From a virus, in the IMG/VR virus record IMGVR_UViG_3300031963_000004, positions 124,001-188,000 of that record: a DNA stretch of 64,000 nucleotides; one strand, written 5' to 3'. Of this stretch, positions 39,965-47,305 are shown in pieces; within the stretch, counting starts at the first letter, position 1; every line of letters starts with the position of its first letter. A model generated the notes under the pieces. That model had not been told where the DNA came from. It worked only from the letters and a program-made list of their open reading frames with translations, and made no database searches. The translations under genes and the position numbers were made by a program.

Positions 39965-40525
39965 ATGCCATCACCACAGAAAGCTAAAGGATCAGGATTT
40001 GAGCGAGAAATTGCTAAGTATCTCAGTGAAACATACGGAGAGAGCTTTATTCGTGCGCCCGGATCCGGTGCTTATATAGGTGGCAAAAATCAGAATCGCA
40101 CTCAGATATTACATGAGGGCCAGATTCGCAGTTTCAAAGGGGATATTGTTCCCGGAGAAAGTTTTCCAAAATTCAATGCAGAATGTAAGTTCTATAGTGA
40201 CTTTGCATTTCATTTGTTGCTAACAGGTGAACATAAGGTTTTAGATGGTTGGATACAACAATTACTTGATGTAGCTGACCCGGGTGATTGCAACATACTT
40301 TTTATGAAGTTTAATAGAATAGGAAGATATGTAGCAGTGCAATGTCACTTAACATGGATCATTGATAATTTTACTTTTTATGCAAGTAAAAAAGTTGGTG
40401 ATTGGTATATAATAGAATTTGATCATTTTATGGCTCACAATAAAAATTTACTCAAGGCATATTCAGGCAACACAGGCACATCAGACACCAAGTCAAGCAC
40501 TTCATTACTTACAATAGACATTTAA
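39965..40525 (+). CDS. Holliday-junction-resolvase-like PD-(D/E)xK nuclease
   Basis: A 186-residue protein with KAKGSGFEREIAKYLSETY (E13), RAPGSGAYIGG, FKGDIV (D60) and NAECKFY (E73, K75). This is the arrangement of archaeal-Hjc-type resolvases and related PD-(D/E)xK endonucleases: E, then GD, then ExK. In a T4-like setting it may resolve or debranch DNA before packaging, the role gp49 plays in T4 with an unrelated fold; that role is inference. It follows the HAD gene by 20 bases and is the last plus-strand gene before the structured intergenic element. The serine/threonine-rich last 25 residues look disordered. Confidence 0.72.
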   Translation: MPSPQKAKGSGFEREIAKYLSETYGESFIRAPGSGAYIGGKNQNRTQILHEGQIRSFKGDIVPGESFPKFNAECKFYSDFAFHLLLTGEHKVLDGWIQQLLDVADPGDCNILFMKFNRIGRYVAVQCHLTWIIDNFTFYASKKVGDWYIIEFDHFMAHNKNLLKAYSGNTGTSDTKSSTSLLTIDI

Positions 40526-40983
40526 TACAATTCGACGGTCAAGTTGTTGACCCTCCTTGAGGACGTACAGGTAGTGCTGTGCTGACGGATCTGGAGTACG
40601 CCTAAGATTAATCTTAGGGAACACCGACAGGGCAATCGTGTGGAGCGAACCCTGAATGAGTACATAGTTAACTTTGTCTTGCGACTATGTAACATGCGTT
40701 GCTGAGGCGTTATTTATAAGAAATAATAGTCTCACTACAGTCCCAATAAACTTTACAGAGCAACCGGTGGCGATTGACAGCGAAAAGGGCTAGTTAGTCG
40801 GGGAATAGACAACATGGGTGACGGTCATGGCAAGTAACCTTTACCAATGGTAGTGCTGAATAGCACTACCATGGATTCAAATCGGCAATTAGTTAATATA
40901 ATCCTATAATAAGAATAAGTCCGAACAAACGAATGAGCGATAGCGAATGAGTGTGAAGGACTTAGATTAGCGAAGCTAATCTC
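40526..40983. ncRNA. Gene-free element with at least ten stems, candidate structured RNA
   Basis: No convincing coding frame exists here, and base composition is visibly less AT-rich than around it. Perfect stems on the plus strand include GGTCAA/TTGACC (40537-40552), CGTAC/GTACG (40564-40600), CCTAAG/CTTAGG (40601-40618), CAGGG/CCCTG (40628-40654), ACATAGT/ACTATGT (40662-40690), TTATTT/AAATAA (around 40710-40726) and an 11-bp ATGGTAGTGCT/AGCACTACCAT with GAAT loop (40847-40872). TAAGTCC/GGACTTA (40916-40964) and AGATTAGC/GCTAATCT (40964-40982) close it. GGTAGTGCTG occurs at both 40570 and 40849, so AGCACTACC could pair with either copy. Strand is undecided, and no known RNA family (tRNA, tmRNA, RNase P, group I intron) was recognised. 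Confidence 0.45.
40711..40718 (-). promoter_or_regulatory. Late-consensus motif TATAAATA on the minus strand inside the structured element
   Basis: An exact TATAAATA reads leftward and would start a transcript through the left half of the element and then antisense to the resolvase gene. The same bases also form the TTATTT/AAATAA stem, so the match may be incidental. Confidence 0.25.
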
Positions 40984-41214
40984 TTAAAAGAATGGCATCT
41001 GAGATTTTTTTGTGGTTTCTAGGTTTTCTTCAATAATTTCGTTTAATGATTGGAGTTCTTCCGGGCTCATGTTTAATACATCTTCATAGGATACAGCTCC
41101 GCGCATATACCAGGCTATACGTTGTGCATTTTTCTTAATAGCCTTAACGTCTTTCTCCATGCCTTCTATAAGCTTCCCGATACCCTCGGAGTCGAGGTAT
41201 AGAAGCTTTATTCG
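40984..41214 (-). CDS. -1 frameshift extension of gp26 (76 codons)
   Basis: In the -1 frame relative to gp26 an open frame runs from the slippery site at 41220-41214 to TAA at 40986-40984. It adds RIKLLYLDSEGIGKLIEG, then a segment with IKKNAQRIAWYMRGAVSYED and the ending NLETTKKSQMPFF. That ending is of a type I associate with a small protein encoded after gp26 in marine T4-like phages. Independent start at the ATG at 41160 (58 residues) is possible, but the only Shine-Dalgarno-like bases (GAAGG) are one base from it. The fused product would be about 352 residues. This parallels the G/GT tail chaperones encoded beside tape-measure genes, and tape-measure-type genes are indeed adjacent here. 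Confidence 0.65.
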   Translation of the reverse strand, partial: RIKLLYLDSEGIGKLIEGMEKDVKAIKKNAQRIAWYMRGAVSYEDVLNMSPEELQSLNEIIEENLETTKKSQMPFF

Positions 41215-41220
41215 AAAAAA
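41163..41220 (-). other. Programmed -1 frameshift signal: slippery T TTT TTC plus downstream stem
   Basis: In the gp26 frame the codons GAT TTT TTC GAA TAA contain the heptamer T TTT TTC (41220-41214), a canonical X XXY YYZ site two codons before the stop. After an 8-base spacer comes CTTCTATA (41205-41198), which pairs with TATAGAAG (41170-41163). Between them CCTCG-ACTC-CGAGG (41197-41184) forms an inner hairpin; ATACC/GGTAT is an alternative extension. Site, spacer and structure are all within the usual ranges. Confidence 0.68.
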
Positions 41221-42041
41221 TCGCTGATGTTCAACGTGAATGGTTGATCATATTCATGCTTACAATGTGTACATGCAATATGTAATGGTTTAATTTGTGT
41301 GGTTTCTCTTAATTTAATGCTGGTTTCACGAATCATTTCAAAGGTTTTCTTATCGGTATTATTGAGAAAATCTTTAATATAAGCCTTTTCAGATACTACT
41401 GCTTCAGGTGTAGCTATGTATTCTATAACATTAACTAATACATCAATTGTGCTGTCCCCGATTATTTTGAGAATTTCGGTACTTCTAGCCTCACGTTCTG
41501 GGCCTTCTTCCATAGAGTTTAGAGTGATAAATGCTCTTTGAATTTCTAATTGCCTTGCAGTGCTATTAGTAAGTTCTTTGTACATTAATGGTCTAAATTT
41601 AATACGTAAATTATCAATCATTAATGGTCTATCATAATCACCCGGGGCGAAGTTATTAAGTACAAAACTTAAATTTAATCCAAACTTACTATCTTCATTA
41701 CAATTTGGACATGTAGTATCTAAATCCATATCATTACCATTAGTCGCTATTTTAATAGCAACTAATATAGCATCCAAATCAACACTGCTTATAGCCCATG
41801 GGTCTTTAATACTAGGTACACAACTGCGTATTATCTCAGCCACCGCTGATCCATTGTATAATGCATCAGGTGTTTTACTGGTTATCTCATCAATAGCAGT
41901 CATAGGATAAACTGGTAGTTCACCAGTTTCTGTCATAACCAAAACATCAGGACCATATCCTTTCCCTTGAGTTGGTAATTTTAAATAGATTCCTGGTCTG
42001 CGAAAGTATTGCTTAAGTGGGTTATGTTCGATACTGCTCAT
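41208..42041 (-). CDS. 26: Baseplate hub assembly protein gp26
   Basis: A 277-residue homologue of T4 gp26 (208), a hub assembly factor. The start FRRPGIYLKLPTQGKGY and ELPVYPMTAIDEI, then TPDALYNGSAVAEIIRSCVP, form the family signature. CPNC (111-114) and CTHC (257-260) suggest a zinc-ribbon-like pair. AGGAGA precedes the ATG. It ends SDFFE-stop directly at a slippery heptamer that leads into a 76-codon -1 extension. It is divergently transcribed from the tape-measure-type genes, with a shared palindromic late-promoter region between them. Confidence 0.85.
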   Translation of the reverse strand: MSSIEHNPLKQYFRRPGIYLKLPTQGKGYGPDVLVMTETGELPVYPMTAIDEITSKTPDALYNGSAVAEIIRSCVPSIKDPWAISSVDLDAILVAIKIATNGNDMDLDTTCPNCNEDSKFGLNLSFVLNNFAPGDYDRPLMIDNLRIKFRPLMYKELTNSTARQLEIQRAFITLNSMEEGPEREARSTEILKIIGDSTIDVLVNVIEYIATPEAVVSEKAYIKDFLNNTDKKTFEMIRETSIKLRETTQIKPLHIACTHCKHEYDQPFTLNISDFFE

Positions 42042-42070
42042 TCTATCTCCTAAAACGGTAATTTTTTGCG

Positions 42071-42097
42071 ACTAAATATAATAGTCAAATATTTAGT
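42071..42097. promoter_or_regulatory. Divergent late-type promoters forming an inverted repeat
   Basis: ACTAAATAT on the plus strand (42071-42079) and its exact inverted copy ATATTTAGT (42089-42097) lie in the 68-base gap between gp26 and the tape-measure-type gene. Each copy reads outward as a CTAAATA late-type element, 31 bases before the plus-strand ATG and 48 before the minus-strand ATG. Confidence 0.45.
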
Positions 42098-42109
42098 GGC
42101 AAAAAACAC

Positions 42110-44539
42110 ATGGCTGATATTCCTGATGACTTAAGAGATACAAGCGAAGATGCTTCCAGAGCGGCTAGGGAAGCTGCCAACGCCCTACGTAGGGCAGTAG
42201 AAGCAGAAGCAGAAAAAAGAGAAAGAATAGAAAGAGCTAAAGCCGGAGTTGAGCAGTTAGCCGGAAGTGCCATATCCTTTTCAAGAACTTTAACTGAAAA
42301 TTCGGGGAGTATGGGAAAATACGGATCTGCTATCGATCAAGCAGCTTCAGGGGTAGGTGATTTAGTAAGCTTGTTAGGACCTTTTGGTATAGTCGCAGGT
42401 TTATTAATAAAAGTTGTAGGTAAACTTGTAGGACAGGTTTTAAAAACAGACGATACTCTTATTCAGGGGTATGACAAATTAGCAGAGATGGGAGGTGCTA
42501 CTGCATTTAGCACCGACGGCTTAAGAGATTTAGCACTTGAAATGAAGTGGACTGTTAGCGACGGTGCATTTACGCAACTAGTAGATGTGGTCGCTGAATT
42601 TGGTAACAACGTAACAGGATTGGGCACAACAGCTGGCGTTGGTATTAAAAACTTCATGAAAATTGTCGAGATGGAACCTGTTGTTAGGGAAGAATTCACA
42701 CGCTTAGGTATAGGACAAAAAAAGGTAGCGCAATTACAAGCTTCATATCTTGCTAATGAAATAAAATTAGGTGGCCGTAGATACAAAGATAATGAAACTT
42801 TAAGAAAAGAATCATTATCTTATATAAGAAATTTAGTTGAGTTAAGTGCCTTAACTGGTGAAAATATTGATGAGATTAAGAAAAGGCAAGAAAACGATTT
42901 AAAAGACATTGGATATAATCTAGCGTTGCAAGAAAGAATGCAACAAAAGAATGGTCAACAACTTAAGTTGAATATTCAAAGAGGTGTTGAACTAGCAGGC
43001 CAAGTTGATGAAGGCTCACGTAAAGCAGTTATGGAAGTTGTTGCTAAGGGATCTGCCGTTGGTCCTGCCGCTGCTGCGCTACAGCAACGATTTAGTATGG
43101 CTGGTTTAGATTTTGTAGAAACAGTGCAATCATTCGAAAAGGGAATGATTAAAGAAGATGAGTTTAGAAGAAGATTTCAACAAGCTAATAAGGCTACATT
43201 TGAAAAATTAGGAAAAGGATTCCAACTAGATGCGCAAGGTTTAAGCAATGTTTATGCGATTTCTGCAAAAACAATGGAATTCCAATCTAAAACGATTGGT
43301 GAAAACACATCGCAGCAAGTAAAAGACGATGTTAAAAATGTCAAAGATAGAAAAGACGAAATAAAAGATGGTCAAGTTGCGATTCAAGATGCAACTACTC
43401 AATTAACCAGAGCGTTTGATGAATTTATAAAATTAATTTCTGGACCTGTACATGCTGCATTCAAAGGATTAATTTATTCATTGCAGGCATTAACTAAAGG
43501 TATAACGAAGTTTGTAAATTTTATTGGCTTAGCTAAAAATTTCGGTGATAAGTCTAAAGTAGATCCTACTATGCCATTTGCGTTTGATTCTATTGAAGAA
43601 TTACTTGATCAACAGATCGAATCAAATAAAGAAATGATTCGAATAGAAAAATTATTTAAAGAAAAAGGAACATCACCTAAATCAAAATTTGAAGATCCAA
43701 ATTCTGTAAAGGCCCTACTTAAGAATCCATCTTTAGTTAAAGAAAGATACAACTATCTTGAAGCAGAAGAAACATACAGGGGAACAACCCAACAATTAGA
43801 AAAACTTTTAGGTACTGAAGGATATAAAAAAGCATTAGAAGAAAGAGAGAAAAATTTAAGAGAAGGTAAAACAAAAGAAGAAGCGGCAAATAAGGAAGCA
43901 GCGAAGAATCAGCAACCAAAAGAATCAGCTACCGCAAATACTGTTGGACCACCTCAAACTCCTACAAGTACAACTACTGCGACGGTAAATACTAACGAAC
44001 AACCAAGAACAAGTACATCTGCTCCTAGCAATGGTCAACAACCAACACAAAAATTTATGCGAGGTGGTATCGCTAGGAATCCAAATCAAGCTAATAGCCT
44101 TGTTTCACATTTAGGTGGAAATGCCAAAATACCTTTACCGAATGGTATTAATTTACCAGCTGATGTTTCTTTATCTGAAGATTTACTATCAAAATTAATG
44201 TCAGCACAACCCGGTGCTAGTAATAACACTGACATTTTTGCATCACTTCAAAATGCTATGCAAAATATGAAAATAGATGCCGTACCTGCTAATTTTGAAA
44301 TGAATAGTAAAAATATATTGAGAGATACGGATAATATGGATAGTATTACAGGTAACTATGCAGAAACACTTAAAAAATCAATTGATAATACTATTAAGAT
44401 GCCCGAAAAATCTCAAATGAAATCTAATAATGTTAATGATATTTTATCTGTTATAGTTGAAAAAATGGATGTTTTAGCTAGTAAGATGAATGAAAACGTA
44501 GATAATCAATATACTACTTTACTAAAGAGTAGAAGATAA
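42110..44539 (+). CDS. Tape-measure-type tail protein, paralogue A
   Basis: An 809-residue protein: a highly charged alpha-helical N-terminus (EDASRAAREAANALRRAVEA), a hydrophobic segment LLGPFGIVAGLLIKVVGKL near residues 88-107, long helices, then a Pro/Thr/Gln-rich disordered region (~600-650). It shares a core with the next gene: FTRLGIGQKKVAQLQASYL, ETLRKESLSYIRNLVELSALTGE cut as SYIRNLVELSALTGE, matching SSLEYAKSLTKLSALTGE. Helical length, a hydrophobic patch and position next to gp26 point to a tape-measure role like T4 gp29; direct gp29 similarity is not evident. No peptidase motif is present. Confidence 0.6.
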   Translation: MADIPDDLRDTSEDASRAAREAANALRRAVEAEAEKRERIERAKAGVEQLAGSAISFSRTLTENSGSMGKYGSAIDQAASGVGDLVSLLGPFGIVAGLLIKVVGKLVGQVLKTDDTLIQGYDKLAEMGGATAFSTDGLRDLALEMKWTVSDGAFTQLVDVVAEFGNNVTGLGTTAGVGIKNFMKIVEMEPVVREEFTRLGIGQKKVAQLQASYLANEIKLGGRRYKDNETLRKESLSYIRNLVELSALTGENIDEIKKRQENDLKDIGYNLALQERMQQKNGQQLKLNIQRGVELAGQVDEGSRKAVMEVVAKGSAVGPAAAALQQRFSMAGLDFVETVQSFEKGMIKEDEFRRRFQQANKATFEKLGKGFQLDAQGLSNVYAISAKTMEFQSKTIGENTSQQVKDDVKNVKDRKDEIKDGQVAIQDATTQLTRAFDEFIKLISGPVHAAFKGLIYSLQALTKGITKFVNFIGLAKNFGDKSKVDPTMPFAFDSIEELLDQQIESNKEMIRIEKLFKEKGTSPKSKFEDPNSVKALLKNPSLVKERYNYLEAEETYRGTTQQLEKLLGTEGYKKALEEREKNLREGKTKEEAANKEAAKNQQPKESATANTVGPPQTPTSTTTATVNTNEQPRTSTSAPSNGQQPTQKFMRGGIARNPNQANSLVSHLGGNAKIPLPNGINLPADVSLSEDLLSKLMSAQPGASNNTDIFASLQNAMQNMKIDAVPANFEMNSKNILRDTDNMDSITGNYAETLKKSIDNTIKMPEKSQMKSNNVNDILSVIVEKMDVLASKMNENVDNQYTTLLKSRR

Positions 44540-44542
44540 TAC

Positions 44543-47305
44543 ATGGCAACTCCAGAAGAAATTAACAGAGAATTATCTAACCTAGCTAGATCGTTAGGTT
44601 CTGCCAGCGCAGATATTGCATCTGCTTCTAAAACTGCTGCAACAGGAGCAAATGCAGTAAAACTATCTTTACAAACATTTGCCACTACTCTTAAATCAAC
44701 TGCTTCTAGTATAAGTGATATAAACAGCGATTTTCAAAAATTTGATGGTGCAATTACTGCCACCTCAAATTCCATACAAAGATTTAGCGTATTTTTTGGA
44801 AAATATGGAATAGCATTTAAGGGAGTAATAAAAGGCTTTGAAGCAAGCTTAAAGTCAGTGACTCAGTTTGGTGAAAGCTTAACTCAATTTTATGATAGTG
44901 TATCGGCATTAGGAGTAACAGCAAGTAGAACTACAGATCAAATTCTTGATTTAATGCACCAAGCAGGATATACACTTGCTAATTCAAAAGAGTTTTATAA
45001 GCTAGTCAAAGATTCGGGAACAACTCTTACCTCATTAGGAGAAACATCGGCTAAAGGTTTAGATAGATTAGCAAGTGTTTTTAACGTTACCCAACTAGAA
45101 GGGGCGCAGGAAAGCTTTTTAAAGTTGGGTTTGGGTCCAAAAGAACTAAACAAACTTCAATTAGAATATATTAAAAGTCAAGCTACAGTAGGATTAAAAC
45201 TTACATCAAATGATAATCTATTGCGTGAAAGCTCATTAGAGTACGCAAAATCTTTAACTAAGTTAAGTGCATTAACAGGTGAATCAAGAGATAAAGTTGC
45301 TCAAGAAATTGCTAAGAATCGCAAAGATATTAGGTACGCATTAAAAATTCAAGAACTTACAGCCAAAGGTAATCAAAAAGCTATTGATGCATTTGATAAG
45401 GCAGGAGCCATTGTTGGATTAAATTTAGGTGATGATTATAGTTCGGGATTAAGAGATTTCGTAGCTAATGGTACAGCTACTACCAAAGAAGGTGAAATGC
45501 TATTGTATAAAACTCAAGGACAAATTGCAAAATGGGTTCGTGATGTTGAAGCAGGAACAATGGATGAGGTTGAACTCGCAAGAAAAATAGCAAAAGCAGA
45601 ACAACAATTTACGCAGGGCAATAGAGAAGCTTTAACCTTCAGTGATGAATTTAGAGAAAGAATGTCATCATCAGGTGATACTATCGCAGGCGCAACTAGA
45701 TTATTAGAAATTAGAAGTAAAGAAGATGTTGATAAAATGGTAGAGGCTGCTGCTAAACGGGAGGATGCTAGAAAATCAAATCAAAGTGAAACAATAAATT
45801 TAGAGAGAAAAGCCAGTCATTTAAATGATAAACTAAGTCAAATGTTGTTTGGAACCGGCGTAGATGTTATACTTGGATTAATAGAAATTGTAAAGCAGAC
45901 AGCAAGAGGTACTATTAAATTAGCACTTATGTTACCAATTGACGGGAAATTAGAAGAATCATTAAAAGAATTAGAAACTATTTTAAGTAGTAAGGATGGA
46001 TTAGGAGAAACTAAAAAAGAACTAGATGGAAAAATTGATGAGATATCCAAACAAATAAAAGATAGAGAAAATATAGCTAAATCAATTAAACTCTCTGAAT
46101 CGGAATTAAAAGAAGCACAAGAAAGAAAAACAAAATTAGATGCAGACGTTCAAAAAGATCCAACAAGCGACCTAGCTAAAGAAACACAAAGAAATAACGA
46201 AATATTGATTGAGCGTAAACAAAGAGAAATTGAAATATTAAAACGTAAAGAAAAAGAATTAGAAGAAAAAAGAACCAAACAAGAACTTGAAAGAGATAGA
46301 AAAAAACTACTTGATCAAAGTCGTAGGGTAGAAAAAGAACGCAAGCAAACAACTAAAGCGGATCAAACAGTTCCGCCCGTAAGAACAGACAAAAAAGATG
46401 ATGGGAAAAGAAGACCATATAAGCCGCCTAAGATGGAGAGCGGTGAAGATGATGATAGAACAATATACCCTGAGCTAGCACCTGTCAAAGGAAAGTTTAG
46501 TAACATAGATTATGTAGATGCTAGATTCCAAAAACAATTTCAAGGATTGATTGATGAAATGGAAGAAAGGGGCTATAAGGTAAAAACACTAAGCGGTTAT
46601 AGAAAACATAATACGGTTCGTGGAGGTCCTTATAGCGCACATGCCTTTGGTATAGCCATTGATGTTAATGCTAAAGAAAACTGGGGTAACATGGATACTG
46701 GAGGTGAAGGACCAGTTAAAACTGACATGCCAGCATATTTTTCTCAATTAGCGAAAAAATATGGCTTAGGATGGGGTAAGGATTGGGGAGGTAAGTGGAA
46801 GGATCCTATGCATTTTAGCGGCATGCCTAAAGAGGGTGGTAGTTTAGTTAAGGGAACAAAACACATTTATCCTCAGTTTAAAAGAGGTGGCGTAGGTCAA
46901 GGTCCAGAATCTGGTTATGATGTTACACTACATGGTAGAGAGGCAATCGTCCCATTCAATGGAAAACCAATTCAAGTAAAGATTAATGACAAAAATCTTA
47001 AGATTGACCATAAGAAAAAGTTTAATGAATTAGCTGAAAGAGCTAATGAAATGCGTCAAAAACTACAAGAAAAGACCAACAAAGTTGATCTAAAAGCTAA
47101 AGATACTACAGTAGATTTTACTGAGATAACCAATAATATTAAGGCAAAAATAGTAAACTTAAATCAATTTTACCAAGAAAATCAAGAGGATACAGTAGAT
47201 ACATCATTAGCAGATGCGTTAGTTAATAAGCTTGAAAATATGATTTCTAGTGTGGATCGCAGCAATTCCATACACAACGATCTAAAAATGTATCTACGCA
47301 ATTAA
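44543..47305 (+). CDS. Tape-measure-type tail protein, paralogue B, with M15 peptidase domain
   Basis: A 920-residue protein. Residues ~1-450 are the helical region related to paralogue A (FLKLGLGPKELNKLQLEYI, LTKLSALTGESRDKVAQ). Residues ~480-620 are strongly charged coiled coil. Residues ~655-765 are an M15-type D-Ala-D-Ala/L-Ala-D-Glu peptidase: TLSGYR, then SAHAFGIAIDVN with H700 and D707 in the SxHxxGxAxD motif, and DPMHF with H757. That enzyme cleaves peptidoglycan cross-bridges and would aid DNA entry. A helical C-terminal part follows. The start lies 3 bases after paralogue A. The peptidase may make up for the missing lysozyme of the gp5 spike. Confidence 0.75.
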   Translation: MATPEEINRELSNLARSLGSASADIASASKTAATGANAVKLSLQTFATTLKSTASSISDINSDFQKFDGAITATSNSIQRFSVFFGKYGIAFKGVIKGFEASLKSVTQFGESLTQFYDSVSALGVTASRTTDQILDLMHQAGYTLANSKEFYKLVKDSGTTLTSLGETSAKGLDRLASVFNVTQLEGAQESFLKLGLGPKELNKLQLEYIKSQATVGLKLTSNDNLLRESSLEYAKSLTKLSALTGESRDKVAQEIAKNRKDIRYALKIQELTAKGNQKAIDAFDKAGAIVGLNLGDDYSSGLRDFVANGTATTKEGEMLLYKTQGQIAKWVRDVEAGTMDEVELARKIAKAEQQFTQGNREALTFSDEFRERMSSSGDTIAGATRLLEIRSKEDVDKMVEAAAKREDARKSNQSETINLERKASHLNDKLSQMLFGTGVDVILGLIEIVKQTARGTIKLALMLPIDGKLEESLKELETILSSKDGLGETKKELDGKIDEISKQIKDRENIAKSIKLSESELKEAQERKTKLDADVQKDPTSDLAKETQRNNEILIERKQREIEILKRKEKELEEKRTKQELERDRKKLLDQSRRVEKERKQTTKADQTVPPVRTDKKDDGKRRPYKPPKMESGEDDDRTIYPELAPVKGKFSNIDYVDARFQKQFQGLIDEMEERGYKVKTLSGYRKHNTVRGGPYSAHAFGIAIDVNAKENWGNMDTGGEGPVKTDMPAYFSQLAKKYGLGWGKDWGGKWKDPMHFSGMPKEGGSLVKGTKHIYPQFKRGGVGQGPESGYDVTLHGREAIVPFNGKPIQVKINDKNLKIDHKKKFNELAERANEMRQKLQEKTNKVDLKAKDTTVDFTEITNNIKAKIVNLNQFYQENQEDTVDTSLADALVNKLENMISSVDRSNSIHNDLKMYLRN

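Follow-up and report, generated by a model that had tools for sequence, protein, structure and literature searches.

Phage lambda obtains its two tail assembly chaperones, G and the longer GT, by a frameshift that is widely conserved in long-tailed phages, with the exception of T4 (2016 review, PMC5009743). The identification of tail assembly chaperones in T4-like phages is credited to Vladimirov, Gautam & Davidson 2022 (doi 10.1016/j.virol.2021.11.003) by PMC10885494 and PMC12846349, the former citing it for the pairing of a short gene with a long, fused one in some T4-like phages, the latter for T4-like TAC-N genes whose slippery sequences are poly-T. As these citations present it, the idea of a frameshifted T4-type chaperone is already published in some form.

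Here we analyze the gp26 gene in a 64,000-nt stretch (positions 124,001 to 188,000, termed here the window) of the virus record IMGVR_UViG_3300031963_000004, whose full length is 223 kb and which is possibly incomplete. The evidence makes it very probable that a -1 slip in this gene yields a short and a long gp26, together forming a chaperone pair of the G/GT kind.

A candidate frameshift site at the end of gp26

In profile searches, the gp26 of the window matched PF12322 (T4_baseplate) at 66.4 bits, against a curated cut-off of 24.5, and phrog_150 at E=2.7e-17. Its gene ends in the codons GAT TTT TTC GAA TAA, just as the first-pass annotation had read them, and among them is the heptamer T TTT TTC, phased for a -1 slip (Table 1). 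Reading after such a slip would continue as CGA ATA AAG CTT and so on, and this frame stays open for the 76 codons originally claimed for it, up to a TAA stop at 40984-40986; gp26 joined to this extension would make a fusion of 352 aa. Because the bare string TTTTTTC occurs 87 times in the 223-kb record, its presence alone carries little weight, and the strength of the case lies in its conservation.

As we read the locus, most ribosomes would end at 41208 and release the 277-aa short form. A minority would slip back by one base on T TTT TTC, aided by a hairpin about 6 nt downstream, and would reach 40984 to produce the 352-aa long form, the C-terminal domain of which is predicted to be helical. 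If the parallel with lambda G and GT holds, coating of the tape measure protein would fall to the short form, and recruitment of tail tube subunits to the long one. T4 and its close relatives would obtain these two proteins from a pair of paralogues, with gene 26 encoding the short one and gene 51 the long one as an in-frame fusion.

Table 1. Features of the gp26 locus, in positions of the window.
Feature	Position	Strand	Basis
-1-frame extension, 76 codons + TAA; proposed part of the long form ("T" / TAC-C)	40984..41214	-	Purifying selection in the -1 frame; helical model, pLDDT 83
58-aa ORF from internal ATG (41160), as a gene caller would report it; probably not an independent gene	40984..41160	-	ORF list
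Putative stimulatory RNA hairpin, ~6 nt past the heptamer	41171..41207	-	Conserved pairing, covariation, MFE
0-frame stop TAA, terminating the short form	41208..41210	-	Sequence
T TTT TTC slippery heptamer, with Phe codons in the P and A sites	41214..41220	-	Phase suits a -1 slip
gp26 ORF, 277 aa; proposed short chaperone form ("G" / TAC-N)	41208..42041	-	PF12322, phrog_150
809-aa tape-measure-like protein, encoded head to head with gp26	42110..44539	+	Conserved neighbourhood; RaK2 annotation
920-aa protein, also tape-measure-like; Peptidase_M15_4 at residues 697-759	44543..47305	+	Domain match

Conservation of the heptamer

From IMG/VR we collected the nearest 80 relatives, at 50-100% identity, with peptide search patterns that excluded the slippery site: TTTTTTC lies exactly at -10 from the 0-frame stop in all 80, and the -1 frame extends 75 codons beyond that stop in every one whose contig is long enough. 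The same position is occupied by TTTTTTC in 85 of 85 further loci, mostly cyanophage-like, that were found with the gp26 proteins of P-SSM5, Atu_ph07 and phiAS5, again with the site outside the search patterns (scans with gp26 yielded one locus for Atu_ph07, none for Vibrio 2.275 and four for phiAS5). Close to its end, the 0 frame thus carries an in-phase heptamer of the form X XXY YYZ, T TTT TTC, at all 165 IMG/VR loci. Since many of these loci are closely related, the counts do not represent independent events.

More diverged phages provide the stronger evidence, as synonymous sites between them should be saturated. Among 15 named phages with about 25-35% protein identity (including PA5oct and Paride, which are near-identical at the gp26 site and therefore likewise not independent), 14 have T TTT TTC, 121Q, RaK2, GAP32, Atu_ph07 and PA5oct among them, and XacN1 has T TTT TTT. 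The site is kept even where the 0-frame stop has shifted downstream, as in PA5oct, RaK2, GAP32, CBB, BF, 7t3, XaC1, SCTP-2 and XacN1; in these phages the heptamer begins 16-40 bases upstream of the stop. The first-pass annotation had proposed conservation of the heptamer in related phages as a check, and it held in both sets of loci and in most of the named phages.

Most named phages with a single gp26 copy have U UUU UUN there, and their -1 frame is open. The last base varies: RL38J1 has T TTT TTG, and Melnitz-3 and VmeM-32 share the T TTT TTT of XacN1. In phiA8-29 (L198) and Vibrio phage D531 (L204), each with one gp26 copy and a retained -1 extension, U UUU UUN is replaced by ACTTTTCA, possibly a different kind of slippery site. 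Together, these phages offer natural tests of how far a slippery site can drift.

Coding in the -1 frame

Across 62 non-redundant sequences, the extension contains no stop in the -1 frame, and both other frames are interrupted by stops in all 62. The codon ahead of the two Phe codons ends in T throughout. Selection follows the same frame: downstream of the internal ATG, pN/pS is 0.35 in the -1 frame, 1.13 in the 0 frame and 1.58 in the +1 frame, and the corresponding values upstream of this ATG are 0.50, 0.89 and 1.42. These results, together with the conserved heptamer, lend strong comparative support to the original proposal of a programmed -1 frameshift producing gp26 and a longer gp26.

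The downstream frame could also be a small gene in its own right, with translation beginning at the ATG at 41160 or by re-initiation after the gp26 stop, given that the in-frame ATG opens an ORF of 58 aa and that small genes of this sort are annotated in 121Q, P-SSM5, phiAS5 and other phages. However, this ATG is kept in only 55 of 79 relatives and is replaced by TAC, TAT, TTA, TTC, TTG or CTA in the other 24, and a Shine-Dalgarno-like sequence precedes any candidate start in just 4 of 62 sequences. Codons ahead of the ATG already evolve in the -1 frame, the FFR junction and the heptamer are kept in most phages despite the moved 0-frame stop, and phages with gp51 carry the same domain fused in frame. 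Because coding in the -1 frame begins before an ATG that is itself poorly kept, as is any Shine-Dalgarno-like sequence, an independent small gene fails as an explanation: we reject it for the close relatives and consider it very unlikely overall. Relatives that retained the small frame without the heptamer, and with a good ribosome site before an ATG, had been named beforehand as evidence against a frameshift; the close relatives did not refute it.

A conserved hairpin downstream of the heptamer

Compared with mononucleotide shuffles, the 45 nt that follow the heptamer form more stable structures (mean z -3.3, with 50 of 53 sequences below -1), whereas z is about 0 in most folding windows elsewhere, the two immediately downstream giving -2.1 and -1.0. 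In the window phage, the hairpin has a minimum free energy of -17.5 kcal/mol and a modest stability relative to dinucleotide shuffles (z -1.64). We imposed the fold of one relative, L018, on a gapless alignment of 53 sequences, a test that leans towards the L018 structure: 78.7% of cells were paired, as against 53.6% after sliding the fold by one column, and covariation reached 0.256, as against at most 0.144 for the slid positions, with changes on both sides in 9 of 14 pairs. RNAalifold predicted no consensus structure for the 53-sequence set, which is why the L018 fold was used, and an Rfam search of positions 40400-42200 of the window returned no match.

The hairpin starts about 6 nt after the heptamer, within the 5-9 nt downstream range considered for a stimulatory RNA structure, and does so with covariation. 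Its inner part is as the first-pass annotation had drawn it; the outer arm is not. The arm CTTCTATA/TATAGAAG was rejected because it is neither part of the predicted fold nor conserved, and relative L003 breaks it (TATAGAGG). The conserved outer arm is GCTTCT/AGAAGC, which in the window takes the form AGCTTC/GAAGCT and belongs to the minimum-energy fold. With the arm corrected in this way, relatives keep the hairpin through compensatory changes, the second conservation check that had been proposed.

A conserved homopolymer run might act on transcription instead: RNA polymerase could slip on the T run, such that some mRNAs with an extra U encode the fusion, and the protein expected would be the same in the absence of any ribosomal frameshift. 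Transcriptional slippage usually requires longer runs, though, and here the run is six T followed by a conserved C. A hairpin spaced about 6 nt from the slippery site is what ribosomal -1 signals typically show, and the variants T TTT TTG, T TTT TTT and ACTTTTCA suit codon re-pairing at least as well as slippage of the polymerase, which we regard as extremely improbable at this site.

Relationship to T4 gp26 and gp51

T4 gp26 and T4 gp51 are paralogues that both belong to phrog_150 and PF12322, with gp51 covering the C-terminal part of phrog_150 that is absent from T4 gp26. When gp26 and its -1 extension are treated as one protein, profile comparison aligns the cyanophage-type fusion with gp51 from end to end, extension included (E=1e-18), and the jumbo-phage fusion collinearly through the extension (E=6e-5). 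The jumbo extension by itself gives weak matches to gp51 and to the cyanophage extension (E of 0.017 and 0.0039) and is significant only within the fused protein. Both the cyanophage-type -1 extensions and the end of T4 gp51 match phrog_634, "baseplate hub assembly catalyst".

We also counted PF12322 genes in whole records, some of which may be incomplete; the resulting pattern is a comparison of counts with no formal phylogenetic test. A single copy is present in the window's record and in Phosso, Atu_ph07, PA5oct, 121Q, RaK2, Vibrio 2.275 and GAP32, as well as in XacN1, BF, P-SSM5, VmeM-32, phiAS5, LG08 and other records of the frameshift type; SCTP-2 has no gp26-family copy by the PF12322 profile and one by tblastn. 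Two copies, some of them split, occur in T4, Stupor, AS-gz and other phages with gp51, and the slippery site is absent from gp26 of the gp51 phages checked (T4, Stupor and AS-gz). The two-gene arrangement of T4 (26 plus 51) was not found in the window's 223-kb and perhaps incomplete record, which has one PF12322 copy and the slippery site. A search of this record with the T4 gp51 protein found no match, an empty result that is uninformative by itself, the PF12322 search being the better test.

T4 (L097) is annotated with a shorter product of gene 26, termed 26', that shares its 3' end, and another T-even record describes 26' as the result of internal in-frame initiation; T4 therefore makes more than one gp26-family product by a further route.

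In cyanophages, gp51 has been described as about 20% of its usual length and without the first ~200 residues, and as missing altogether from Aeh1 (Sullivan et al. 2010, PMC3037559). A frameshift would explain both the short cyanophage gp51 and the absence of gp51 from Aeh1. The frameshift signature is carried by L186 (233,234 bp), which we take to be Aeh1. On balance, though with less assurance than for the frameshift itself, we favor a history in which the U UUU UUC frameshift is ancestral across the T4 superfamily, jumbo phages included, and in which T4 and its close relatives replaced it by gene duplication and in-frame fusion of one copy, giving genes 26 and 51. If so, T4, the textbook exception to chaperone frameshifting, would represent the derived state, and cyanophages would have no separate gene for their truncated "gp51".

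Gene neighborhood and predicted structure

Tape-measure-type genes adjoin gp26 in the window, as had been noted, and are divergent from it; in lambda, the gene pair lies between the tail tube and tape measure genes within a single transcript. The homologue of the 809-aa protein is on the strand opposite to gp26 in all 70 loci with a match, and the corresponding neighbor in RaK2 is annotated as similar to tail tape measure protein. The 920-aa protein is apparently related to its 809-aa neighbor, and the two match some of the same neighboring loci. The lambda order itself is found in P-SSM5, phiAS5 and phi-Grn1, where the small frame lies between gp26 and a large gene in the tape-measure position. 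On the other side of gp26, about 460 bases between its extension and the next gene (40526-40983) hold no convincing gene, and a perfect 8-bp inverted repeat without a T run lies just past the stop codon of the extension (40964-40982).

The AlphaFold2 model of gp26 (pLDDT 88) matches proteins named T4-like baseplate hub assembly in a viral structure library. Neither a fold comparison of this model with the PDB (no match at E<=0.001) nor a sequence-profile search of PDB chains (designed proteins only) identified a relative, and the model of the extension had no confident match in the viral structure library, so no direct structural link to lambda-type chaperones emerged from these searches. The gp26 model also resembles uncharacterized giant-phage proteins of 450-550 aa (E of about 1e-7 to 1e-4) from Erwinia Special G, Ralstonia RP12 and RSF1, and Klebsiella Eowyn; on these predicted structures, they could be unrecognized chaperones outside the T4 group.

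Alternatively, the frameshift could be genuine and its long product a structural component of the baseplate hub instead of a tape measure chaperone. Annotations of gp26 as baseplate hub are widespread, genetic work has been read in the same way, and PMC3004832 presents both views. That source, however, counts both gp26 and gp51 among the hub assembly chaperones and gives gp51 as absent from the final particle; moreover, lambda follows just such a pattern, with a chaperone of two forms that arises by frameshifting and binds the tape measure protein (PMC5009743), and T4-like tail assembly chaperones are named as such by Vladimirov et al. 2022, as cited. A structural role in the hub is thus improbable. 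The first-pass annotation had seen a baseplate hub factor to which the theme of chaperone frameshifting was being extended, a view that we would reverse: gp26 is most likely itself a T4-type tail assembly chaperone, with gp51 as its in-frame long form.

Comparison with known tail assembly chaperones

Because T4 also makes both versions, albeit from two separate genes, the gene in the window represents a known theme, of which it is a well-conserved example, and not a new kind of system. What is apparently new are the unannotated cases in jumbo phages, the hairpin and the contrast in copy number. The chaperones of Vladimirov et al. 2022 presumably belong to the same gene family as the gp26 described here; the title of that work stresses a mechanism without frameshifting, whereas the window phage has a frameshift signature and one copy.

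For many T4-type and jumbo phages, this means that annotations need correcting, as gp26 probably does not form part of the hub and its small neighbor is probably not a gene of its own. The exception that T4 makes to the G/GT rule becomes a testable case of evolution switching between frameshifting and the duplication of a gene, and the many natural variants of U UUU UUC provide material for measuring how a slippery site and its hairpin set the ratio of two proteins.

T4 gp51 resembles the fused gp26 in aligning with it from end to end, and differs in that it is encoded in frame by a complete gene of its own, on the opposite strand; the window phage has the C-terminal part only as the -1 extension of its single gp26. 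The slippery heptamer of lambda is G GGA AAG and that of the window U UUU UUC, and the window differs further in its divergent tape-measure-like genes. With lambda G and GT, the locus shares a -1 slip (here predicted from sequence) near the end of the short ORF, a minor, C-terminally extended form and a tape measure gene nearby (PMC5009743), and the analogy drawn at the outset, of a short form and a -1-frameshifted long form from one gene, fits. Given the end-to-end alignment with gp51 and the contrast between one-copy and two-copy phages, the most likely reading is that gp26 and its fusion correspond, in T4-type phages, to lambda G and GT.
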